Source: Allacma fusca (Eukaryota; Arthropoda; Collembola; Symphypleona; Sminthuridae). Taken from it: DNA of 64,000 nt. The notes under the pieces are model-generated. The model saw only the letters and a program-made list of their open reading frames with translations, was not told the origin of the DNA and made no database searches. The stretch covers positions 32,063,378 to 32,127,377 of the forward strand of contig OX359248.1 in the NCBI GenBank assembly GCA_947179485.1, in the 5' to 3' direction. The position numbers and the translations under genes are program-made. Shown here in pieces: positions 14,908 to 59,440 of this stretch (within the stretch, counting starts at the first letter, position 1; every line of letters begins with the position of its first letter).

Positions 14908-17900
14908 GTAAGACCAATTAATGATTACATTCCTATCCCCCTCAAACACACTCCCGCAATGAGCTTATGTAATTATATTTGCGGAACAAACAATAGTCAA
15001 ATTATCCCTGTCCTTGTCCAACAACTACTCCACACAGGTAGATACGAAAACTCAAGTAATTGTCAAACAGCCGGAGTAAAATTATAATACAGACTTTCCG
15101 TATGACACATTTCTCAAAAGTACACATTCTACATATGTATGTACATTTTAATAAGTGCGACGAACCGGAGTAAGTTTTGACACTTAAAGTCAAACATGAT
15201 TCTAGTTTGAATAAGTTACTTAGTAAGTGACCTACTGTACGAGCATACTCTATATAGACTCTAGCTCTCAACTAAAACTTTCAAATTTATTATTCAAGAT
15301 GCTCCTATCAACACAAATGGGGCAAAAAGTATCAAATGGCTCGTAAATCGATCATCGACCTCCAAGTACAGAAACATTTCCAAGTGTATTGATCAGACAT
15401 AGTAGTTGGTTGAAGGGAAGGGAGTAATATTCCCAGAGTATATACATAATTATGTATATGTACATATATGTAGATATACACGTACAGTAGTATTACTCCT
15501 TTCCCAATGAAGACTTTGACTACCAGTTCCAGGCAAAACCCACATTTTTTTAGACAAGACTCACTCACAATGAGAGCTGTCTATAAATACAGAATGTGGG
15601 ATCCACATACATACATAATTATACAGTCACCCCTGGAGTCATACGGGTTGGAAACTTCCAATCAGTTGACAAGCATAAATAAATACAATGACAGCCATAC
15701 ATACAACCAACTTAACAAGCAGTCACTCATACCCCCACTAATTACACTAATAAACGAACAACAAGCAAGTCAACATACAATTTATACATCAGCAACTACA
15801 GACACTACCACCACTACTCACTCACAAAACTAGGAACATGAGCTCTTCTTGTACTGTCACTATGAATTAACAAAGGACAATACTCCGAAAACAGGAGCAA
15901 CATGAAATATGTAAAAGCACACAAGGAAGAAAGAAAAAAACTAATGAAGCCCGCAAACATATAAGTAGAAAGTCCGGGGGTTCCTCGTTCCTCCTCAATA
16001 ACGATAGCAACACCTACACATGAATAGGGGACTTAATTGGAATTCAATGTTTGAATAGGATCAAACCTAAACAAGGAATATCATTGTGGACATTGTAAGT
16101 ACTGTCATGATTTTACCAAACAAACAAAAAAGTTAGGCTTCAGGGAGAAAAAAAAAGTTGGGCTTGGAACTCAGTCAGGCTTCACGTCTCAAGTCTATTC
16201 ACCTCCCAGTGTAGTATGTAGTAGATTATGGAGAAACTCCATTTACTCTCTGCCCTTGATTGTCACAGGGAGTTTCAGACTAAACGTGTAGATAGAAACT
16301 CAGTGATAGAGCTGATTGTGAGAAGAATCCAATAATTTCAAACTTATGTATACTGTATCTACATGGAGTAAAAAAAAGTATGGAAACAGTTTCAACAAAA
16401 AAAAAAGTCATATAGGATGAATGTGTCCGTCAATATGTAATAGAAGGGAGTCCTGTATTGACAATGAGGGAAAAGACGGCATTGGAAATAAACCTTTGCC
16501 TTAAACCATGACCAATGAAAAGGTGGAGCAGTGAATACGCAAGTAAATGTTGTCCTGATCTTATCAATTGCATTCAAAGTATTGTAACAGAAATAATAAG
16601 ACGAGACCGGGGAAAAAGACATTTCTCCCTTCCTATATAAGTACATACTTGATGTGTACACTCTTATAATTACAAGGTTCCCGGTCCTGGTCCTCCACTT
16701 CCTAGGGATGGTTCAAAAGGCTGAGTGCTTCAATTTAAACAGAAAATTCAATGTGAAGGAATACAATGCCGGGGAGCACGGGAAAGAAAGTGTAGGAAAT
16801 GTTCTATACTTAAGAGATCCCTGCCTGTCTTGAACTCTCCCTTTCATTCTCAGGAACTGTATATACTGTTGTCGTAGTATAGATAGGTATATCTATCTAT
16901 AGATAAATCTATAGATACAAGTAGACAAAATATATGGGAAAAGTTACAGTAAAAAGACCTAAACACACACAACAAATGTTTCAAGCTTTCAAGAGCTCCT
17001 GCTGATCAATGATGATCGGAAATGGTGCCAGTGAGCTGCTTCTAGCTTGATTAAGAAAATTTCATTTAAGGCTCAAGAAAACACTTGTACTTGTACTTAC
17101 ATCATTCAAGGGGAGGGGAAAGCAGGATTAAATATTCGATGACAATGAATGTCATGTACAAGACTCTCAATTACTCCTGACTTAATTGAAGTGTGTGTAC
17201 GTCGTTATAATTATTACTTATCGTCGCTGAAGAGGCAAAATGGAATACATGCATTTTGGATTAAAATCAAAATGGTCTACATGCAGTTTTACTAAATGCA
17301 AAATGGAATAGATGCATCAAGTTTTAAAAGCAAAATGGAATAAGTGCAATTTCGTCTAAAAGCAAAATGGTCTACATACATTATGAAAGTATACACGCAT
17401 GTAGACCATTTTGCTTTTAGTGAAAACTGCATGTAGTTCATTTTGCTTTCAGGAAAGCTTGCAACTATTCCGTTTTGCCTTTAAGGAAAAAGGCATGTAG
17501 ACCATTTTGCTTCTATTCGAAATTGCACTTAGTCCATTTTGCCTCTTCAGCGACGTTATGCTCATGTTCAATCGTAATAATCAGGAATTATCGTAGTAGG
17601 GTAGTTACATTATTTCTAGTCATTAGATTCGATTCGAAACTACATCATATATATATATATAGGGATCGATGGGAAACATCACATATCACATAGGAAAGTA
17701 TATTTTATTTTATTATAAGAAGAAGATGTGAGCATGTAAATACTTCCTGTAAATCTTTTATCATCTACGAGATAGGCCACGTCTTCGACTCGGCCGGCCC
17801 TAATCAAACTAAATGATTCCGGCTGAAGGAAATTGCAGGTGAAATTCACGTTGCTAAATAAATATTACAATTACCGCCATCATCCATTGCAGCCCTGCCT

Positions 17901-20900: not shown

Positions 20901-23900
20901 GATGCAACAATACAAGGCCCAACATTACTTCCACTCTGACTTTTCCTACATGTGTAGATACGTTAACACGTATATAGTTAAGACCCATCCAGTTCTGGTA
21001 TTATCTCACAGTATTATTTCTTGTAACCTATAAGTTCCTTCAGAGGAAACCTCTTGAGACTGAACCTTGTACTACTCTGTTTTTATAAGGGAAATTTTGT
21101 TATAAAAGCACATATTGGAAGACAACGTTCCCCTACCAATACCTGCGTACATACATAGGATGAATTATTATAGACAGATTGTGTAATACGATATGAGCAT
21201 ACTGGAATCCCGATGATGACACTTAATTAAAAACATAATTTCCCTATGTTTTGAAAACAGTTGGGAGCAAACTTGATTCTACTGGTTGCAACCAATCTTT
21301 TGGGGCTACTTTCATTTTACCTGAGTGACAAGAAACAGAGACGGGCTTTCATCGACACGAGACAATCCCTTGAAATGAAACTGGTCATAGAGGAGCAAGC
21401 CAAAGAACAGGTTAGCAAGTGGGACCTCTCCTGTCCATTTGTTTACTCTGTAAATATTCCTTTTTACATACTTTCTGCACATAAGCCATCTATGTATGTG
21501 TCAACCCTCCCTGTTGTTGGTATTAGTAATGTGCCCAGATTTACTGTAACATGTAACCGATCAGCCCCATTCTCCATATAAGCAAATGACATGCAAACTA
21601 ACAGGGCAACTAAAATCCTCCTGCGTTGACTCTACACCAATGTATCTATTTCTATTTGCATATTCCAATATCTATAGGTACTTATGCGTTCCCATGTAAG
21701 TTGGTATGTATCTATGTATGTATATCACAGCAATTCCTTTCCTATCCCTACAGGAACGTCTTTTGCTGTCAGTATTACCGGAACACTTGGCGTTAAAAAT
21801 GAGGCAAGATTTGGGCGCTGCAGTGGACGGCCAATTTAAGAAGATTTATATGAGTAGACATGAGAACGTTAGGTAAGAAGACCATTTGTTCTTATTATAC
21901 ATTTACCAGCTCTCTCTCTCTCTTTGAGTGCATAACATTTCATTGCCAGCTTCATTTCTAAATTTACGTCCACTTCCATAAATCAGTAACTAGTATTACA
22001 ATGTATGTATGTATGTATGTATGTACATTTACAATTCACACATACTGACATATGCTGACTAACTACCTTCACTATAGAAGTTATAGTCGAAAATCCTTCA
22101 ACTCTAAAAAATAGTAACAAAAGATAAGGAGGTAGTTCCCAACTTCAAGGAGCCATGTCTCGGCTGAACCTTGATTTTCAATAATAATTATTTTAAGGCA
22201 ACCAGGAAGACTAATATTTAACGTTTCTCATCAAAAGATACAAAGGCGGTTGCTATTATTAGCCTTGTAAAGTGCCTAGCATACATTTGATGGAACTTTA
22301 AAAAAAAATATAGAAGCTTACAGCTTGTTTAATATCACTCCCCATACTTACCACTACCACGCTCCGGAACTCTTTCCGTAATTTCCGACGATCGTCCGTG
22401 AACAAGGCCCTTTTTATAAGGGGGTATCTATGCAACGGATGTACATAATTAATATGAGCCACAACACCACGGCAACAAATTGATACTTACGTTTCTCTTT
22501 CAGCATTCTGTACGCAGATATAGTGGGATTTACAGCAATTTCCTCAACATACTCCGCTTCGGAATTAGTCAAGATACTCAACGAGCTTTTTGCTAGATTC
22601 GACCGACTTGCAGACGTAAGTGTGTCAAGAATTATTAAAGCTTGATTTATCCTCATAATTGCTTTACTATTCTCCAAGGAGAGCACCCGCCTCAAGATCA
22701 AATCCTGTAATAACTTTCAAAACTTACGTAGTAGTCGTAGTAGTAATTAGTCGTAGCCTAACCTATGAGTATTCCCAGCATGCAAATTATTTACAAGCCT
22801 ACACACACTTACTTACGGGGCCGTCTCACATACTTATAATTACAGATATGAACATAATTGATGGTCACAAACCAGGACATGAGAACCCTCCCGAGATGTT
22901 TAGTATTTACTACAATCGGGATTACATTTTTACTCCTGTATGTTATGTACATACTCTAAAAGCCCTTTGATACACTATACATGTGTACGCACAACTAGGA
23001 AGCCAGTATTAATCATTTTAATGAAAATTGGAGCAAAGATTCTAATAATAACTTTATACGCTCAGAAACATCACATACATGCTAACAACTACATTAGCAC
23101 GTGGTTCAATATTTGCGGTACATGAAATAAAAGTAAATATATACAATGTAACTCATAAATATACCTACGGGATGTGTGCTACTGTAGTGTGTTAACATGA
23201 AGAATCTGAATGCGTAGGTTGAGGAGGATTAAATCTTATATTGTATCTGTCATTACAAATTTATTACACATGGAAAATATGCCCCAACCTATGTTCTCTG
23301 TCTCTACAGAAATATCATCAAATTCGTATCAAGATTCTGGGTGACTGCTACTACTGCATTTGTGGGGCTCCTGAAGAACGCCGTGATCATGGAGTTCTAT
23401 GCGTCCACATGGGTCTTTCCATGGTCAAAGCTATCAAGTAAGTTTTTTTTTCTTCTATTTCGAAATCATCATCATCATCATCACCATCACCATCAACAGT
23501 TGAACCATGGAAACACATTCAATTTCCCACGTTCCACATAAAAGTCCAAAGTATCTATGTTCAATATTACATACAAAAACTAAATATAACTCTAGGCACC
23601 TACATATTTTTCTACATGAGAAAAACCAAAACGTGTCCGGATCGTCCTACAGTATTTCAAACTCGCATTGGACAGAAGTAGGCAGGTTGGGAGCCGTACT
23701 CACAAACGTGGACGTATTTGTATTTCTAAAGGTCAAAGAGGAAAAAGAATTACGGGCCAAAATTGCCAAGAGTATTCCCTTGGAAATGTGATTCATTACA
23801 GTAGACCTGATGCTCCGCTATAATTATTACAATACTGTAATGAAGATTGAAAATGCTATTTACTTATAAAAAAAGGCTTTTGGCAAACAAAATAATGCGT

Positions 23901-26118
23901 GTGCCATGTATTGGGTACATATGGCCCCATGTCAACGCTACATGATCACATCCAAAATCCTTAAAGGAGCTTGACAACGCAATAGAACGACAGTTGACTG
24001 ATGATAGCATTTGTAACATGAGAAACATATGTGTGTGTATCTTGATAAACGGGAGATCTCGTCGGGAATCAAGAGCGATGTGTATATAATTACATACATA
24101 TACTTATTACCCAGTATCTTTGCGGATCTAGGAATATCTTGAAGATCCATATCTTTAAAAGTATCCATCCACATGTGTCCTATGTATCTCTATACATGTA
24201 TCTCTATACATGGACATACATATCTATCTACAAACTGAATTAAGTAAATTTAATAGCGCCCCACACATATGCAATATGTATCTACACTTCTGTACATCCA
24301 CACAGAGCAAGACACACTCCGCAACCTCTCGGACCTGGAAAAGTATCTACAATTTGATTTAATTTAATCGAGGTTCGAGGACCTCATGTCAAATTCAATC
24401 ATATTACCTAAAATCTAATTTAAAGGGATCCATCCTTTTAAATATGTGGAAACTCACATACGGACTAAACCAGAGAGGGTGAGACCGAGCGGGAAGTAAA
24501 TCGATCAAGAGTGGTGTAGTAACCGTGCTACAGTACATCTTGGCATAAATTCTGCTAACACTCTTTCGTTAACGTAGTTTTCTTTCGCTTGAGAACCTCT
24601 CTCACACAACGACTCCTACAAATACAGTACAACCGTATACCAATGAACTACAGGCTCCAAAGAATAGAGCGATATTCCAACTGCTTGATTGAGTTATTCG
24701 GCCACAGTATCTATGTATGTGTTCCTTCTTAAATTTAATTAACCGCCATCATTTTATCTACCGTGAATGATATCAAGTTACTTCAAAGATAGTACTTCCC
24801 CACATTCGTATATCAATCGTATCAAAGGGCATATGTGTTGTTTTCTAAATGAGGATGTCAACAACAACACAAAACCTACTTTAATTTTCTATGCCAGTAA
24901 TCATAGAATATGTATGTGCACAAGGCCTGGTCTTAATACCCAATGAAAATAAATACCCAACTTTTGACATCCCATGTACATAATATATTATGCATAGCCT
25001 GAAGGGGAATTACGTAGGCAGAAAATGGGATGGAAGATTTTAGTTAAAACCCTTTCATCCACTAAATCCACTCAGTTAAGCACGAGTATATGAGCCCCAC
25101 AATTTCCCAATTGGGATCATCCCCAACCTGGCGAGGACACGGACAGCCACATTCAAAAATATATTCCTGATAGAAGAATTTCAGAGTGGATTTTTATAAC
25201 ATAATCATCACAATCTTCTAGCTGGAGGGGAAGTATTTTAAATTAAAATATCCAAACACACATGTAGGATTTATGAGGATATGTTCAAGTCATCAAATAA
25301 ATAAAAGGAGAAAAGGGGCAAAGATACATACTACGTTGCTAGTTACTACTACTTCAAAACACTTGCAAAATACAAACTGTACAAAGTGTAATAACACATG
25401 AAATGGTTCACTCGAAAAATAACTTGAAACCGATTCGAAGGTCAAATATTTAATTACATTTTACATTGACTCGTACCTCGGTATCTATGTATATACTATC
25501 TACCCTTTCATTAAAACCCATAGGTACGTCCGGGAGACAACAAATTCTCCAGTGGATATGCGAGTGGGGATCCATACAGGTGCTATTCTTGCTGGGGTTT
25601 TGGGTCAACGTCAATGGCAGTTTGATATCTACTCCAAAGACGTTGAACTCGCTAATAAAATGGAGAGCAGCGGCATGCCCGGGTGAGAAAACAAAGTTTG
25701 ACTTGATTATTTCTGCATGTAACTGAGCCGTTCCTGACACATTATATTCCAAAATACTCTCATAATAACTAGAACGCTACAGCCTACCCAGGAGTAGCTC
25801 CTCCCTTACCCCAACACGTCTGTGAGTATAAGTATTTATAAGAGCTATGGACTGTGGAGTTTAGATACAGATAGATAATTATACGATTTGAATTCCCTCA
25901 TACAAGAGTTAAACATCTTCTCACAAATTCCCTTGAAATAAATAATAACATAGGGACTAAACATTGCCTTGAGCCATGAAAGCCTTATCTCTGGAATTTA
26001 AATTAAAAGCATAACCTTGCAGAGCATCTCAAAATTCTCAACGCATAGGGACAACACAGTAGTAAGATTCGCACGGTAATTTTCAAATCCTAAATACAGT
26101 CGGATTTACTGGGTTAGT

Positions 26119-47364: not shown

Positions 47365-49378
47365 CTGTTAAACAAATGCATAAAATTTCTTCAATTAATT
47401 ACAGAACAACTTAAGTTATATAAATCTCAAAAATATGAATCATAATGCTGAAGCAACGAGGAGGCAGTGGTGGAGCTTTCCTAGTGAAACACTTTCACTA
47501 CCCTTCATGAAGGTTTTCCTCATTACAATAAAAGGGTTTATGAAAAGGAATCATGGTTTACTAAGTAAGCTGGCTGCACTGTCTTCTAATACTCAGTAAT
47601 ATAAGACATGGTGATTAAATAGGATTTAGAAATTGTAACATAATTTTAAATACTAATTACATATTATTTTATTCCTAGTAAGCTTTGAAATGTGGCCGGA
47701 TGATAGATTGATAGATATTTACTGACTTAGAATGAATGTGAAAGATATAAATAACCTTTTTATATCAAACAATTGAAAAGATCTGTGCAAAACATAAAAT
47801 TAAACTTTCAAATCAATTATTATTGTAGGAAATTAAACTACTTCTTTCTGTTAATTACCACAAGTTTTAGATATAAATATGTTATTATAATAACTTAATT
47901 CATTGAAGGTATTTAAAACATACAAAAATAATATTCCTTTTTAAGTCCTCCAAGGGAAAAGTTTGTCATTTTGGTTGAACAAGAAGCTATATTTCAACTC
48001 AGTATACATATAAAAACATTATGATACGTAATAATCATACAAAATGGCTAAAATTTTCAATGTTGTAATAAAACTGTGATGTTTCCTCTAATCTTAGACA
48101 TAAAAAGCACGTGAAGAGGATCACTAGGATTACCATATTTACGCCAAAACACGTTTTGCATTTTATATTCATGAATATTAAAATTCATCTAAAGTATAAC
48201 TCTTACCTCAATCATATCTCGGTATTCTTCTAGGGCAACGCGATAAGCTTCAGTATTTTTCTTTTCATCCAGAACGGTAATTTCATTTCCATCCTTGAAT
48301 GGCAATGAGTCCTACAAAAAATACCAGTAGCTACGTCAAAGTTCGTGTCATTTTAACTTTTACGGTAGCATAACAAAGTTTCAAAATTAAAACAAAACAC
48401 GGCAGAAAGAACAAGTACCTCAAAGTAAGTGTCTTCACTGGCAGGAAAACTTTCTTCGATTTTTTCATAAATCACCCTGAGTCTTTTAAATAATGCACGT
48501 ATAGTTTTTAGTGTTTCTTGGAATTTCGACTTGCGGTCGATTCCAGGATAAGTTTTTCCGTCCGGAGGCTATCAGAAATATATAATTATGTACATAAATT
48601 TGTTGAAACAAGCATTTGCAAACTGTGCCAGATAATTTAAAGCTTAAAACATGAAAGCAGTACATGTCTTGAAGAACAGTACCTGAGCAGTTCTCAGAGT
48701 TTGGAAAACCTCTTGTGTCCGGGATACAATTTCCTGCACTGTCTCCTGGCCGAAACGGCACAAAGATGCAGCATTTAATTCTTTCGAAGACATTTGTTGA
48801 TTGGACTGTTGAGACTGCTGAAGCGGTTGATTGTGTACTGGAGCAGGATTTCCTTGTGTGCTGCCACTCTCTGAAGAAACTTGCGTTGCTGATCGAGGAC
48901 CGGGTGGCACAAGAGGACTATGATGTTGTTGCGATTGTTGTTGTTGAATTTGGGATGGATGATTCATCTGGGTTATGCCGGGTTGGTTGAAACCAGAGCC
49001 CATGCCAGACATTCCAGTCTGGGGTGATGGGGTTGAGAACTGCATTCCCTGTTTGATAGACACCATATGAAAACCTTTCTAACTGATTATAGTATTTATT
49101 TGCAAACAAAATAATAGCCATGTACTTACTCCACTTCCTACGTTTGTAGGCCCGGTCGACATTTGATTCATACTTCCATAGCTAGGATTACCATGTTGCT
49201 GTTGTTGTTGCTGTTGCTGCTGCTGTCCCATTTGTGATGGAGAATTCATAAACCCCACTACATATTCATAAAAAGGTCAAATGTAGGTAAAATCCGAATA
49301 TAAATAATTTACGATTATATTTTGCTTACTTTGGTGCATCATTCCTAGGGGAAGATTGGGATTGTTATAATTAGCCAT
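47266..49378 (-). CDS. MED30: Mediator complex subunit 30, six exons
   Basis: A Mediator subunit linking transcription factors to RNA polymerase II in the nucleus. Exons on the minus strand: 49378-49330, 49257-49130, 49048-48683, 48568-48419, 48311-48207 and 47364-47266; 897 nt, 298 residues, every junction in frame with GT-AG sites. The conserved core begins at about residue 149 with ELNAASLCRFGQETVQEIV, continues through PPDGKTYPG and FKRLRVIYEKIEES, and ends with WDINTMLAMRKE, all characteristic of metazoan MED30. The N-terminal 148 residues are Met/Gln/Pro/Ser-rich, with a nine-Gln run coded by mixed CAG/CAA; the human protein is about 178 residues, so this half is an extension. The ATG opens MANYNNPNLP with a purine at -3. 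The gene is convergent with the small + strand candidate. Confidence 0.95.
48207..48311 (-). CDS. MED30: MED30 exon 5
   Basis: Residues 232-266; acceptor ttgtag, donor gtaaga. Ends ALEEYRDMIE. Confidence 0.95.
48419..48568 (-). CDS. MED30: MED30 exon 4
   Basis: Residues 182-231; acceptor tgatag, donor gtactt. Conserved helix ALFKRLRVIYEKI. Confidence 0.95.
48683..49048 (-). CDS. MED30: MED30 exon 3: Q/P/S-rich region and start of core
   Basis: Residues 60-181, phase 0 at both ends; acceptor aaacag, donor gtactg. Ends with the conserved helix VQEIVSRTQEVFQTLRTAQ. Confidence 0.95.
49130..49257 (-). CDS. MED30: MED30 exon 2: Gln run
   Basis: Residues 17-59 with the nine-Gln run; acceptor atgtag, donor gtaagt. 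Confidence 0.9.
49330..49378 (-). CDS. MED30: MED30 exon 1
   Basis: Start codon and 16 residues plus one base; donor gtaagc. Confidence 0.88.
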
Positions 49379-53456: not shown

Positions 53457-56400
53457 TTAAAGAGGGGAATTAGAGGAGCTGGGTTCCGTGACGTGACGGG
53501 ACGCTTCTCGTTTAACCTTAATGAAGTAGTCTTTGGATCCTAATTTGGGTCGGAGACCAGCTTGAGGATTAGTGGGATTGTCCCCCATGAATGCGTTCAA
53601 ATCCACCCAGTAGTACAAGCCATTTGGTTTTTGAGGTTTTGGTGTGAATTGGTTCGCTAAGATATGAAATATATTGGATTCCGATGGAGACACTTCCGGT
53701 TTCGGACTTGTTGCTGTATTCAGCCAGTTTTGAGCTAGTATTGACTGAATGTCCAAGGCTGGTTGTTGCTGGACTTGCTGCGGGGGTTTCTGCTGCGCTG
53801 ACTGAAAAAGTTGCTGTAGAGATTGAATGTGCTGGGATTGTGGAACTTCCTTATTAATCCTCACAGAATCGGGTTTTGAGCTATCTTGGACAACTTGCCC
53901 CAAATTTAAGAGTTGGGATAGGAAATCAAGTTGTGCAGCTGTGGTTTGGGGAGTGGAAGTTGTAGGTATTGGTTTGGGGGGTACAGCTACAGGGGCTATG
54001 GGCAATACGCTTTTACTTGAAGTTTTGTTAGCTTCTGCGGTGAGTATTTGAAGAATCAAGTCTTCGTTGCTTAAAGTCTGTGGTTTCGGGGAAGTTGATA
54101 GAGGGTTGTATATTGGGGCAGCAGAGTTATCCTGGAGTACCCCTGGGGATGCTGTGGATTTAGAAGGATCAGTTATTCCAAACATGTTGAGCATATTACG
54201 AAAGATTGGCATTAAAGTTGTTGTGCTCCCAGGAGTTGTCGGAGCAGGTGTGGTTGCAGATACCGGTTCAGTGCTACTACTAGTGCTTGATAGTGTTTCT
54301 TTTGTTGTTGTCACTGGCTCTGGAGCCCCTGTCACCGGAGGATTTTTTATTTTATTATCGGACACATTCGTGGAAACTTCTGTGGTAGAAGATCCCAATT
54401 GCTGCTGATCAATTAAAGCATAAATAGATTTCAAATCAGCATCACTCAATCCACTTTCTGGTGTAGCTACTTGTGTGTTGACACTGGAAGCCTGGGAAGC
54501 AAATATATTATTATTGGGCTTCAGTCCCAATGATTCTAATAAAGCTTGTTGAACCAGTGTTTCCAGTTCATTCTGTGAGGTCGTCGGAGCTGTGTTTTGA
54601 GGACGGGCAGTTGGCTGAACTGGATTTGACGGTTGTTGGAATAAGTTCAAGAGACTGAGTAAATCATTCGCAGCGGGAGCTGGAGTCGTGGGTGGAGGAG
54701 TTGGCCGACGTGTGGTAGTAGTAGGTGGAGGAGCTCTTGTGGGTTGTGTAAATAAATTAAATATATTGAATAAGTCATTATTAGCTGGGGCCGGAGTTGT
54801 AGCACTGGGCTGTTGAAACAGATTAAATAAGTTGAAAATGTCATTGTTAGCAGGAGCAGGTGCTGCTGGTCTGGGAGCAGGTGTAGTGGGCTGGAACAAA
54901 TTGAGAAGATTGAACAAGTCATTAGATGCCGTAGTTTGAGCTGGTCTTTGAACTGCCGGGGGATTTGTTTGCGGTCCAAATAAATTAAACAAATTAAACA
55001 GATCTGCTTGTGTCGTTGGGGGAGCTGGAGTTGTCCTTACGGTTGGTCTCGGTGTCGTTGTTGTTGGTCTTCTTGTTGTAGTTGTTCTCTTTGTAGTTGT
55101 TGTGGTAGTTGTGCTCGCAGTTGTAGTTGGGATTGGGGTAGTTGATGTTGTAGTAGTGCTCGTAGTTGTAGTTGGACGTGTAGTAGTTGTTGTTGGACTT
55201 GGGGTAGTTGACGTCGTAGTGGTCCTCGTAGTTGTAGTTGGACGTTGGGTAGTTGTTGTAGAAGCAGCAAATGTGGAAATCCCTAAATCTTCATTAAAAA
55301 TTCCGAGTAATTGTTGTAATAGTAATGTCTCATCAAGTAAAGGCTGGGTGACTTGAAGTATGGGATTAGGAGTTGTTAAAGTAATAGGCGGCTCATCTTT
55401 TTCCCCTGTGAACGGTGGCATGAGAATTAGAGGAGGGTCTTTATTTATTTGGATCTTCATGTTTGGTCTCCTGGTAGTTGTTATTTCTTTGGTCTCAGCT
55501 ACAATGGTGACTGCGGGAGTCCAATTGTTCTTACCAGACTGCTCATCAATATTGTCTAAGAAAGTGTTGATTTGGTCAATATTGGCTCTCGTTGGGCTAG
55601 CTGAGGTAGTAGTGGTAATTGGGACCATCGTTGTCCTGCTCATTGTTATGACTGGTTTCTTCGTTGTCTCTGCCATTACTATAAACGGGCCCTTTGTGGT
55701 CCTGGCCGTCACCGTTATTGGGGCATTTGTGGATGGTTTTGGACGTAAAGTGAATGGAATTTTTGCATTTTGCTTTAAAGTTGTTGGTATAGGAGTTGCG
55801 TCTTGGGTTGACGAAGTAGCTATTATTGGGACGATTGTCGTTGCTACTGCTGTTTTCCCTCTCGTTTGGGTTTCGACATCGCTCGTTGAAGCAGTAGGAA
55901 GTTTATCGTGCAGAGATGACGAACCGGCTTTGAACATCATTGTAGACAAACTAGGTTTATACGTTGTTACTGTGCTCATGTCAGTTGTAACTTTCAGTGG
56001 AGGCTGAGTAGTGTATTTCATTGTAGGAACAGTGTACTTCATAGTAGTAGTAGTCGCTTCAGTTGTTGTACGTGGCTTGCTCGTTGTCAATGGTCGAGGT
56101 GAGGTAAATGTGAGTCCAAGAATCTCAAAGATATTTGGAGCTAACGTCGTTGTAGTTGTAGATGTGCTTGTTGGTGAGTAGCGGGTCGTTGCTTTGGCTG
56201 TGGACGTGCTAATAATAGGAGAGGGCTGTGTGGTTGGTAATGGGACTAATGACAGAGATGGTAATTTTTCTGTCACAACATTACTTGGCATCTGAGTCGT
56301 TCGTAATGGTTTGATAGTAGTACTGATATGCTGATTATTTCCTCCTGGCCTCTTTTGTTGACTCATAGATGATGAAGATGACACAGTGGTGCTCGTGCTC

Positions 56401-57695
56401 ATTGACACAGAGTGTTTGACTTCAATACGTGGTCGACTCTTGTAAATTTGACGTTGATAATCTGATGAGATAATGGCGTCATGGTTGAGAAAATGATTCT
56501 TGTCAAATTCCTCATGAAGATCTGGTGCAACTCTGACACTCACCGGAGAGTCATTCAACTTGTGCTTAATCCCAATGGTTTTATTCTCAGGGATTTTGGA
56601 AATGTCCTTGAGACTTGTGTCAGAGTTGAAGAGGGGATGAAGAAGATCCAAATTAAAATGAAGGGAATTCCTCAAATCATTGGATATTGGGACAGAAGCA
56701 TTGAGATACGGATTGAAACTTTCACTTAAATGCAGATCAGGTTCATTTTCCTTTGCTGTATCTGGTTTTTTCCTTCTTCTGACAACATTTTTGTTGATTT
56801 CTTTGGAGTGGTTTGGTGGGGCTCTCATGTTGGTGGCAGCTCCACGTTGGTAAATCACTATTTGCTTTGGTGTAGTGGGTTCAGAAGAGGTAGGTAATGC
56901 ATCAGGTGTATCTGATAACTCACGGACTGTGTCTCTTGGATTGTCCGGGTAGTCCGCAATGGGAGAAGGCGATGGCCAGAACTTTTTATTGTCATATGAC
57001 TCGTAACCAAAACCAACGACATGTTCTAAAGGCTCGATTGAACTGACCCTATTGCCTGGGTCAGATTCTCCCTGTAGTACAGGTCCCGGGCGGAAGTACT
57101 GATCTCTCGGTTTTTTCCGTCGTGTAAGTCGCCGTCTTCGGGTCTTCCGACTAGGATTTAAACCCGCATATTCATTTTCTTCAGCCAAAGGAGAACTGAC
57201 TGGCCAGGGTGGGACGACTATGGGACTCAGTGTCGGAGCTGGAACATGTTGGGCAGTATTAATATGTTTAATTCTTCTACGTCTCTTCCTCGTGCGATTT
57301 TGATTAGGATTAAGTATTTCCTGGGTAGGAAATTGTGATATAGGGTAGGAGTAATAATTTGGTAGGTTTCTTAAATAATTGGGATTGTAAATATTGTAGT
57401 CATTAATCAAGTCACTGTTTTGTAACACTCGGGACACAGTGGCAGGGTCAGTTTGCGTTACGGACACCATCGGCGTAGTTACTTTTTCGGGATGGAAACT
57501 AATAATTGGAGGTGTTGGGGTGGTTCTCCTTGTGCGGTTTTTCCAGAATGGGTCATGGTACGCCGTGACACTACTCACAAAAGGGTGAGCTAATACCTTG
57601 TTGTGGTTAAGATAGCATGGCACGATGGAGAGTGTAAATAATACCGTTGGGACAAGCCAGGTTGCCCAACGGGAAGATGCCACTAAGGTATTCAT
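53457..57695 (-). CDS. secreted Thr/Pro-rich mucin-like protein, 1412 residues
   Basis: One uninterrupted 4239-nt frame. TAA lies in frame two codons before the ATG, supporting this start. Residues 1-36 form a signal peptide (hydrophobic WLVPTVLFTLSIVPC), so the product is probably secreted. It is mostly disordered. Basic clusters at about 136-143 (RKRRRRIK) and 183-196 (RKTRRRRLTRRKK) look like proprotein-convertase sites. Thr/Ser/Pro-rich segments dominate from about 450, with a dense TTTTT/TTSTT block at about 808-880 suited to O-glycosylation. Five repeats of the type DLFNLFNLF, separated by Pro/Thr/Ala linkers, lie at about 895-1020. YYWVDLNAFMGDN at about 1361 is a compact Trp/Tyr segment near the C-terminus. 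No chitin-binding or cysteine-rich domain is visible. Likely cuticle, gut-lining or matrix material; I do not recognise a named homologue. Confidence 0.85.
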   Translation of the reverse strand: MNTLVASSRWATWLVPTVLFTLSIVPCYLNHNKVLAHPFVSSVTAYHDPFWKNRTRRTTPTPPIISFHPEKVTTPMVSVTQTDPATVSRVLQNSDLINDYNIYNPNYLRNLPNYYSYPISQFPTQEILNPNQNRTRKRRRRIKHINTAQHVPAPTLSPIVVPPWPVSSPLAEENEYAGLNPSRKTRRRRLTRRKKPRDQYFRPGPVLQGESDPGNRVSSIEPLEHVVGFGYESYDNKKFWPSPSPIADYPDNPRDTVRELSDTPDALPTSSEPTTPKQIVIYQRGAATNMRAPPNHSKEINKNVVRRRKKPDTAKENEPDLHLSESFNPYLNASVPISNDLRNSLHFNLDLLHPLFNSDTSLKDISKIPENKTIGIKHKLNDSPVSVRVAPDLHEEFDKNHFLNHDAIISSDYQRQIYKSRPRIEVKHSVSMSTSTTVSSSSSMSQQKRPGGNNQHISTTIKPLRTTQMPSNVVTEKLPSLSLVPLPTTQPSPIISTSTAKATTRYSPTSTSTTTTTLAPNIFEILGLTFTSPRPLTTSKPRTTTEATTTTMKYTVPTMKYTTQPPLKVTTDMSTVTTYKPSLSTMMFKAGSSSLHDKLPTASTSDVETQTRGKTAVATTIVPIIATSSTQDATPIPTTLKQNAKIPFTLRPKPSTNAPITVTARTTKGPFIVMAETTKKPVITMSRTTMVPITTTTSASPTRANIDQINTFLDNIDEQSGKNNWTPAVTIVAETKEITTTRRPNMKIQINKDPPLILMPPFTGEKDEPPITLTTPNPILQVTQPLLDETLLLQQLLGIFNEDLGISTFAASTTTTQRPTTTTRTTTTSTTPSPTTTTTRPTTTTSTTTTSTTPIPTTTASTTTTTTTKRTTTTRRPTTTTPRPTVRTTPAPPTTQADLFNLFNLFGPQTNPPAVQRPAQTTASNDLFNLLNLFQPTTPAPRPAAPAPANNDIFNLFNLFQQPSATTPAPANNDLFNIFNLFTQPTRAPPPTTTTRRPTPPPTTPAPAANDLLSLLNLFQQPSNPVQPTARPQNTAPTTSQNELETLVQQALLESLGLKPNNNIFASQASSVNTQVATPESGLSDADLKSIYALIDQQQLGSSTTEVSTNVSDNKIKNPPVTGAPEPVTTTKETLSSTSSSTEPVSATTPAPTTPGSTTTLMPIFRNMLNMFGITDPSKSTASPGVLQDNSAAPIYNPLSTSPKPQTLSNEDLILQILTAEANKTSSKSVLPIAPVAVPPKPIPTTSTPQTTAAQLDFLSQLLNLGQVVQDSSKPDSVRINKEVPQSQHIQSLQQLFQSAQQKPPQQVQQQPALDIQSILAQNWLNTATSPKPEVSPSESNIFHILANQFTPKPQKPNGLYYWVDLNAFMGDNPTNPQAGLRPKLGSKDYFIKVKREASRHVTEPSSSNSPL
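54640..55010 (-). repeat. five protein-coding repeats of the DLFNLFNLF type
   Basis: Within the mucin-like gene, each copy has an Asn-Asp pair (or Gln-Ala-Asp) then an alternating Leu/Phe/Asn helix of about nine residues, followed by Gln/Pro/Thr/Ala linkers. Copies differ (NLLNLF, IFNLFNLF, IFNIFNLF, LLSLLNLF), so they are diverged tandem duplications. Confidence 0.85.
55060..55275 (-). repeat. Thr-codon low-complexity block
   Basis: Imperfect repeats of ACA/ACT/ACG codons with interspersed CGT/CCA/AGT give a Thr/Arg/Pro/Ser tract of about 70 residues. Antisense open frames here are artefacts of the repeat. Confidence 0.85.
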
Positions 57696-57862
57696 CAGTT
57701 ATCACTGGTTTTAGTTCAGTAGTTTGGACAAATGATTTACTATTGTCCGGGTCCAAGCTCTCATACCCTGATACATCACAGTGAATTAAAATATCACTTG
57801 GCTTTTGCAATAATAATAATAATTATTATTATAGTTGTTAAGATCACTCCACACTCTTTCAC

Positions 57863-58131: not shown

Positions 58132-59358
58132 GGTGAGACTATCACAAGTAGAACTGTTGTGTGGAGGAAATAAGTAGGTTGGCCATTTGAGCAGCAGCGT
58201 AGAGATTCCTTGTATACGTACACAACGTGTGAAATTTCCCTTTTCGCTCCTGATCCTCAAAGAATCTCCTCATGTGTATTCTCACTGACATCCAAATCTC
58301 GAATGTACAAGGTGGAATGAATCAGTTTGGAGTGAGTGTTTGTGTATAGTTGGTTGGTAAAACTACTGTAAGCTAACTTGAGAGTAAGATAGAGAGAGAG
58401 AGAGAGAGAGAGATGAAGCACACAGATTCAACTGTGACTAAGAAAATTTCTGTTCCTCACCTTTGCTTACGTCTGGGACGAGAGAGGCAAACAAGGAAAC
58501 TGCATATATCACTGGGGATATTGGTTTGGCATTTTAGTTCTCCATTGAGTTTGAGACTTTTGAGAGAGTGGTGGAGGTAGTGGAGTATAGTTTATATGGT
58601 TTGTAAGGCTTGCAAATTAAATGAATATATATGTATGTAACTAGAGTGAGTATAAATGGTTAAAGTAAAACTTTATGTGTGGTTTGTGAGGAGAGTTAAG
58701 GGCGTTTCGAATGATCTTTTAAGTAAGAATTTCTATGTACCCTTACCTATGCCTAGGTGACCATGCCGGTTATACTGCATGTGTGTTTATTATGTGTATG
58801 GAAAGACTTTCTCTTTTCTTCTGACTCTAAGGTAACCAACTCCTCGAAGGTATAAAATTCATAAATTCACATGGAAGCTACATACTAAATGTTAGCCATG
58901 TGATACAGAGCTGTTTACACGAATAGTAAGCCAAAGGCAATACACTACAGACACAGTAGTAGTAGCGTGTGACGGATCTCTTGGGTGCAGATAGATAGAA
59001 GATAAAAAGTAAAGTATAAGTCTTTGGGGAGATGAAGCTTCAGACGCTTACTACAAAAGACACGCATCTTATATCGTTATGTGTTCCTATGAGATAGGAT
59101 AGGAAAGAAGTATATCTCTCAAGCAGAGCATAATCTAAATCTGATTTTCTGCATGGGACTTTTAGCTCTCGTGCATACTATGCTGAGTCTTCTGGTCATA
59201 ATTGTGCTCTATGATAAATGAGAAGATCTCTGAGCGATACGTTCATGTTCATACAGTACTTATATTATTATCATTATAATTGCATTTCTATGACCAACAG
59301 CTGAAGCGACAGGGTTAGGGCAAGGTGGAAGGGTTAGGCTATTAGTATTGTTGTATAT
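58132..59358. other. no gene recognised
   Basis: AT-rich stretch upstream of the mucin-like gene. Besides a GA microsatellite at 58390-58413 I see nothing to annotate. Confidence 0.5.
58390..58413. repeat. (GA)n microsatellite
   Basis: About 12 GA units; the only long dinucleotide tract I noted in the last 6 kb. Confidence 0.95.
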
Positions 59359-59435
59359 CGTCGTTGAAGAGGCAAAATGATCTACATGCTATGGTTTTTG
59401 TACAGCATGTAGATCATTTTGCCTCTTCAACGACG
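59359..59435. mobile_element. 77-bp minimal foldback element
   Basis: Perfect 32-nt arms (59359-59390 and 59404-59435) around a 13-nt loop. The arms start CGTCGTTGAAGAGGCAAAAT, matching the ends of the 17.2-kb element except for one C/T difference in that stretch, then contain one CAAAATGATCTACATGC unit. ATAT flanks both sides (59355-59358 and 59436-59439), which also extends the pairing to 37 bp with one more base each side. A single-unit member of the same family, with no coding capacity. Confidence 0.8.
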
Positions 59436-59440
59436 ATATA

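Follow-up and report, generated by a model that had tools for sequence, protein, structure and literature searches.

How does a short hairpin element come to carry the same number of tandem repeat units, in the same order, in both of its arms? The question is raised by el1, a 334-bp inverted repeat in a 64,000-nt stretch of the genome of the collembolan Allacma fusca (GenBank assembly GCA_947179485.1, contig OX359248.1, positions 32,063,378 to 32,127,377 of the forward strand). We refer to this whole stretch as the window and give positions within it. An initial annotation, made from the letters of the window, described el1 as a non-autonomous element whose stem had grown by tandem duplication in both arms in register. 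We find that el1 is a young, recently amplified non-autonomous DNA transposon of foldback type, a miniature inverted-repeat transposable element (MITE). The fuller explanation that we consider highly probable is that this MITE with foldback anatomy is mobilised by a transposase supplied from elsewhere, generates 4-bp target-site duplications, and took its arms from a larger relative.

el1 is a single inverted repeat with precise ends

el1 consists of one inverted repeat with 23-bp perfect ends, arms of five 31-32-nt units each and a short loop (Table 1). The left-arm units start at 17235, 17267, 17298, 17330 and 17362, those of the inverted right arm start at 17542, 17510, 17478, 17446 and 17414, and Tandem Repeats Finder reports a 32-nt period in both arms. 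The five-unit arms and the inverted second arm of the initial annotation are therefore borne out, as is the TTAT abutting both ends. Its terminal inverted repeat is indeed perfect, although at 23 bp it is longer than the 22 bp originally given. The end letters are CG..CG. The annotation had also proposed folding the element, and the el1 strand pairs end to end (-168.7 kcal/mol, z score -19.9), with 0 of 100 shuffles folding equally well.

An inverted-repeat scan of the window, covering spans up to 800 bp and excluding low-complexity arms, found that only el1 and a 77-bp relative, el2, stand out, the next unrelated candidate having 14-bp arms. Searching with the 22-bp end and allowing up to three mismatches gave four matches in the window, two in el1 and two at 59359-59435, compared with a mean of 0.00 in shuffled sequence (n=100). 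The ends of el2 are the same as those of el1 except that 2 of the first 22 letters differ between the elements, and each difference is present in both arms of its own element. On folding (-55.7 kcal/mol, z score -17.2), el2 resembles a very stable short hairpin RNA.

Table 1. Coordinates of the two elements and of the adenylyl cyclase matches in the window.
Feature	Position	Strand	Remarks
el1, 334-bp non-autonomous foldback-type element	17222..17555	.	identified by structure, fold and at least 40 identical genome copies including el1
el1 target-site duplication, left copy	17218..17221	.	TTAT
el1 target-site duplication, right copy	17556..17559	.	TTAT
el1 left perfect terminal inverted repeat, 23 bp	17222..17244	+	outer 13 bp CGTCGCTGAAGAG, then start of unit 1
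el1 right perfect terminal inverted repeat, 23 bp	17533..17555	-	
el1 left array, five units a-b-c-a-b	17235..17387	+	second unit 31 nt; fifth extends into central loop
el1 right array, five 32-nt units	17389..17542	-	order as in left array
el2, 77-bp relative	59359..59435	.	one unit per arm, 32-bp perfect arms, 13-bp loop
el2 target-site duplication, left copy	59355..59358	.	ATAT
el2 target-site duplication, right copy	59436..59439	.	ATAT
Adenylyl cyclase catalytic-domain matches (PF00211), gene downstream of el1	22502..25683	+	22502-22621, 23304-23453, 25510-25683

Identical copies with 4-bp target duplications are dispersed through the genome

Genome searches were run against the window's own assembly (392.7 Mb, 91 contigs). 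The 334-bp query returned 1212 candidates, and the figures for identical copies rest on the best 40, which were scored. Among the 41 places listed for this query, 40 are identical over all 334 bases and one is nearly so, each recurring as a weaker inverse match; el1 itself is one of the 40 letter-for-letter copies. An exact 4-bp direct repeat flanks all 40 of these copies (ATAT in 35, AAAT in 2, and ACAT, ATAC and TTAT in 1 each). None has a 5-bp repeat (0/40), and in a single copy the two sides also agree over 6 bp, within a run of AT. Around the duplication the sequence tends towards a palindrome, with G, A/T, G, C/T before it and A/G, C/T, T, C/G after it. All flank pairs of the 43 334-bp insertions in the fetched loci are distinct, so these are separate insertions. 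Genome-wide, the exact end CGTCGNTGAAGAGGCAAAATG occurs 895 times in forward and 887 times in reverse orientation, while a control pattern gave 0 + 0.

We then recounted 98 distinct insertions of all size classes in the fetched loci, which supplies the tally of units per arm and 4-bp flanks that the initial annotation had suggested. The 4-bp duplication is exact in 90 insertions and one letter off in 8; with strands merged, the exact ones are ATAT (80), AAAT/ATTT (6), TTAT (2), ACAT (1) and ATAC (1). The annotation had named two findings that would overturn its reading, a lack of further genome copies or copies without the CGTCG ends and 4-bp repeats. Both were looked for and neither occurred, and the claim of a non-autonomous mobile element with CGTCG ends is upheld by the identical copies, their duplications and the abundance of the end. 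The family thus has the hallmarks of a MITE: inverted ends, duplications, short length, many copies, and no transposase frame recognised in two long copies, L091 and L121. It also has those of the foldback class, namely long inverted repeats of tandem units whose number varies between copies and between arms.

Two loci hold neighbouring copies. At one (L036, G000:C5:29828048-29829345), two 334-bp copies point in opposite directions with 130 bp between them; one is identical to el1 and the other nearly so. At the other, a degenerate 79-bp one-unit copy (L031 168-246) adjoins a 334-bp copy, with ATAT common to both, which is probably an insertion at an older relative's duplication. The degenerate state of this 79-bp copy indicates that one-unit forms are not all recent. 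Beyond the assembly, an exact end match in a contig of a bacterial metagenome-assembled genome (L001) falls within a long reading frame and showed no inverted partner; such a match is about what chance would allow, 0.2 being expected by our own estimate. Viral contigs scanned for the end and for the unit array yielded no match, and a literature match of the element sequences, to a plant marker study, was taken as chance.

Five-unit arms are shared between size classes

We paired ends among the first 100 listed of the 1782, all on contig C1; 78 form 39 inverted pairs and 22 are single. Seven pairs span 334 bp, nine span 355-359 bp and two span 77 bp, while 16 of the 39 have CGTCGG ends and range from 364 to 846 bp, mostly 818-846. 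The remaining pairs, one each, measure 264, 398, 423, 425 and 1235 bp. The position-6 end letter differs between subfamilies and is the same in both arms in 37 of the 39 listed pairs, which suggests arm-to-arm copying at some time. The 845-bp class (825-850 bp) has a different end letter and carries five-unit arms around an interior of ~500 bp.

Among the 98 insertions, 81 have five recognised units in each arm (5/5). The others are 1/1 (7), 5/7 (3), 5/2 (2), 4/5 (2), 4/4 (1), 4/6 (1) and 1/4 (1), the last interrupted by a nested insertion. Every 334-, 355-359- and 825-850-bp copy in this set is 5/5. When the 334-bp arms were compared with those of three 845-class copies, left-left identity was 77.5-78.1% and right-right identity 78.8-79.4%, with crosses at 72.3-77.4%, and one arm with a 31-nt second unit is found in both the 334- and the 845-bp class. 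The five-unit arms probably predate the split of the 334-, 355-359- and 825-850-bp classes. Given that the five-unit arms and the 31-nt second unit are common to classes, and that arms of the same name are slightly the closest, the 334-bp form probably inherited its arms, and we infer that it is an internal-deletion derivative of a larger family member that lost the interior and kept both arms. In a separate observation, one contig carries two equal-score 845-class interiors of like orientation separated by ~3.26 kb (G000:C32:165091-168846), reflecting either a tandem duplication or an assembly artefact.

The units appear to form a nested array and may bind a transposase

Unit types run a-b-c-a-b in both arms of el1. 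Within and across arms, identity between units is 0.80 at lag three, compared with 0.67 for neighbours and 0.71 for units two apart. This three-unit period was spotted first and tested afterwards: none of 14400 arm permutations beats the observed order, and the 32 that equal it match the count of the observed arrangement's symmetric relabelings. Within the 32-nt unit, the half-to-half identity is 0.51 versus 0.28 (standard deviation 0.07; 6 of 5000 column permutations) in 8 of the 10 units, both fifth units being left out. Each unit looks like a diverged 16-nt dimer, and the arrays seem to share a nested history of 16-32-96 that is common to both el1 arms.

The unit core follows the pattern GCAAAATG..TA..TGC. 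Across 16 units (four arms from two classes, with the outermost four units of each), conservation averages 0.85 at unit positions 1-19 and 0.53 at positions 20-27, and the 31-32-bp period is close to three DNA turns. The most likely role of the units is that of transposase-binding sites about three turns apart, as judged from this pattern and by analogy. The long inverted repeats of Galileo contain tandem repeats with further transposase-binding sites (PMC3688188, excerpted text), and multiple binding sites seem to be a convergent trait according to the authors of PMC3573991, as far as the excerpt of that paper goes.

We propose the following mechanism. Each end has a terminal motif of 13 bp and, inward of it, about five 32-bp units in tandem, with the conserved part of each unit serving as a putative transposase-binding site. 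A cut-and-paste transposase made elsewhere would cut at the CGTCG ends, bind the units and spread the copies, duplicating 4 bp with a preference for ATAT inside a roughly palindromic target. Sites every ~three helical turns would allow the transposase to load on one face of an arm, and the arms could pair. Loss of the interior from a larger family element, with both arms kept, would yield the 334-bp form, and unit number would shift by ordinary tandem duplication or loss, mostly in a single arm.

Target duplications fit a possible Sola2-like transposase

Sola2 elements make AT-rich 4-bp AWWT duplications (ATAT, AAAT, ATTT; PMC3627910, excerpt). The 4-bp AT-rich duplications of the el1 family agree with this, departures (TTAT, ACAT, ATAC) being few. 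Excerpts of PMC3627910 and PMC10741241 extend the likeness to length, with Sola terminal inverted repeats (TIRs) of up to 1124 bp; however, the Sola2 elements in those papers possess a transposase and TIRs of 12-21 bp, whereas here the arms are unit arrays of ~160 bp and no coding sequence was found in the family. We regard the Sola2 assignment as a lead rather than membership, and a Sola2-type transposase as a candidate source of mobility. Several other superfamilies were considered. Tc1/mariner, with its TA duplication, suits both window copies after a one-base shift, but was rejected because 3 of 40 duplications lack TA (AAAT 2, ACAT 1). Neither does piggyBac fit, as its TTAA duplication, a target that Kolobok and Sola3 also duplicate, is seen in 0 of 40 copies. 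Ginger has TG..CA ends (PMC10741241, excerpt) and was rejected on the CG..CG ends of the family, and P/Galileo, with duplications of 7-8 bp (PMC5199201), on the 4-bp length in 40 of 40. FB-, Tetris- or Tm1-like elements would have 8-10-bp duplications, which the same 40 copies, with 4 bp throughout and 5 bp in 0/40, do not have.

The longer copies that were read, L091 and L092 (1678 bp) and L121 (2073 bp), were rejected as autonomous candidates, being 845-class copies with nested insertions. The 845 interior includes a 33-aa possible last-exon remnant, with no Pfam match. Additionally, 3 kb was read inward from six of the 22 singles among the 100 ends listed, and no transposase was recognised; a partner end lay at 77 bp in two of these stretches, at 359 bp in two more, and at 596 and 2073 bp in the others. 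As for the nested insertions, L091 and L092 (487-2164) contain the same ~825-bp one, whose ends read CAAAGGTGTCC and whose duplication is probably the 8-bp GTAAACAC. Although they occupy two sites, these copies are 99.9% identical to each other, which suggests that element and insertion moved as one composite. L121 (101-2173) is a diverged 845-class copy, 87% identical to L067 and flanked by an AAAT duplication, and its nested insertion of ~1.2 kb is rich in a GTACCTG repeat, with a likely 8-bp duplication, TTATGTAC.

Comparison with known foldback elements

The FB elements of Drosophila melanogaster are built of inverted repeats of short direct repeats, including 31-bp repeats; they make 9-bp duplications and are larger than el1. 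Galileo, a Drosophila element of the P superfamily (excerpts of PMC3573991 and PMC3688188), resembles our family in that the repeat number can differ between the arms of a copy, in having copies reduced to two arms, and in having repeats with further transposase sites. It is unlike our family in its F repeats of ~210 bp, TIRs of about 0.5-1.2 kb and known transposase, and P-type duplications are 7-8 bp versus 4 bp here. The Tetris/DAIBAM foldback of Drosophila virilis (PMC4079207, in excerpt) also has a variable tandem-repeat number inside its TIRs and is non-autonomous, with no transposase-coding partner found in that work, but has ~220-bp repeats and 8-10-bp duplications and is much larger. 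Tm1, a Mutator/foldback family of root-knot nematodes (PMC3169594, in excerpt), shares the composite TIR of end motif plus tandem repeats. The Tm1 repeats are short (13-15 bp), variable in number and unequal between ends, and the family has MITE-like members, but its duplications are 8-10 bp (mostly 9) and its 7-bp terminal motifs are asymmetric.

Arms probably change mostly one at a time, and other origins are less probable

Growth of the hairpin stem in register, by gene conversion or copying of a hairpin intermediate, would account for the unit order common to both el1 arms, for the matching position-6 letters and for symmetric short copies (seven 1/1 copies, 77-83 bp long, and a 4/4 copy of 300 bp). 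We nevertheless find it improbable. Arms of five units are also found in classes whose interior is ~500 bp long, and most likely did not grow at the site of el1. Moreover, the same-position units of el1 are 0.77 identical across arms (units 1, 2, 4 and 5; 0.75 for all five), which does not exceed the lag-three value, the opposite of what is expected after whole-arm copying; as a last step, such copying is therefore not demonstrated. Change in a single arm is seen directly. A 398-bp copy (L074) has five units in one arm, 98.8% identical to the el1 right arm, and seven in the other, which equals the left arm with unit 3 tripled, the three units in a row being identical. Two further copies of 423 and 425 bp (L101 and L072) are also 5/7, and two of 264 and 400 bp (L100 and L103) have 5/2 recognised units. 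In these copies, units appear to have been gained or lost in a single arm by ordinary tandem events. In-register growth is not required for symmetric hairpin arms: a larger transposon can pass on its ends, and the arms can then change singly. The shared order and the symmetric 1/1 and 4/4 copies still count in favour of the growth initially proposed.

That el1 belongs to the foldbacks of some other superfamily (P/Galileo, MULE or hAT) and has an atypical duplication length is unlikely, though a little less so than in-register growth. The nearest described anatomies, those of Galileo, Tetris and Tm1, are long inverted repeats with internal tandem repeats, but duplications of 4 bp in 40 of 40 copies contrast with the 7-10 bp range of those systems (Tetris 8-10, Tm1 8-10, P 7-8). 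A functional hairpin RNA locus, kept for its transcript as a source of small interfering RNA or microRNA, would fit the great stability of the 334- and 77-nt strands. We hold this to be very improbable, because at least 40 identical sites with 4-bp duplications are the pattern of a mobile element, and the window contains no Rfam match at the gathering threshold. The units do stand in tandem arrays, yet a chance or satellite-like inverted tandem repeat is refuted by the precise ends, the duplications and the dispersed identical copies, and we give it practically no weight.

Several observations count against the reading we prefer, a transposon mobilised in trans with binding-site arms inherited from a larger relative. 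No autonomous copy or transposase was found among the loci read. Unit positions 28-31 (TAAA) are conserved at 0.94, level with the core, so the spacer is not simply free, and same-position units compared between classes show a moderate gap (core 0.78, spacer 0.62). The left-left preference between classes amounts to a few percent only, and the deletion origin has a less likely alternative, in which a 334-bp-type element gained an interior. The symmetric 1/1 and 4/4 copies give no support to one-sided change. Finally, the samples are not random: the 40 identical copies are the top of the candidates, and over half of the 98 insertions were retrieved because they matched el1 or the interior of the 845 class.

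Implications of the site-number series

In kind, el1 is an ordinary foldback-type MITE; the interest lies in the series of site numbers. Recognised sites per arm in this one genome number 1, 2, 4, 5 and 7, alongside identical young copies and a sharp 4-bp target, making the family a clean system in which to ask what tandem repeats do in foldback arms. We speculate, with more doubt than conviction, that each arm is a counted array for loading transposase. An arm of five sites, three turns apart, would be a selected optimum that holds two diverged subfamilies at 5/5 and keeps one-arm changes (5/7, 5/2) rare; the 77-bp copies would be the smallest transposable form, and foldback anatomy would have arisen independently in an AT-rich 4-bp (Sola2-like) lineage. 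If so, one genome would offer a natural dose series for site number versus transposition, and foldback anatomy in a Sola2-like lineage would be separate from the foldbacks with 7-10-bp duplications.

Genomic context in the window

el1 lies upstream of the adenylyl cyclase matches and of two weaker membrane-region matches, one at 21222-21401 (E 0.0005, under the curated cut-off) and one at about 19.8-20.0 kb (E 0.87). The third and strongest cyclase match has adenylate cyclase type 8 as its best solved relative. As the cyclase catalytic exons lie downstream on the + strand, it is plausible that el1 is intronic in this gene; upstream of el1 no exon was confirmed, a candidate at 14.5 kb being without support. 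el2 sits upstream of a minus-strand open frame of 1413 aa (53457-57698) that is threonine/proline-rich with short repeats (tandem repeats at 55042-55259) and has no Pfam match at E 0.001. A match to Mediator subunit 30 (PF11315) lies at 48644-49078 on the minus strand.
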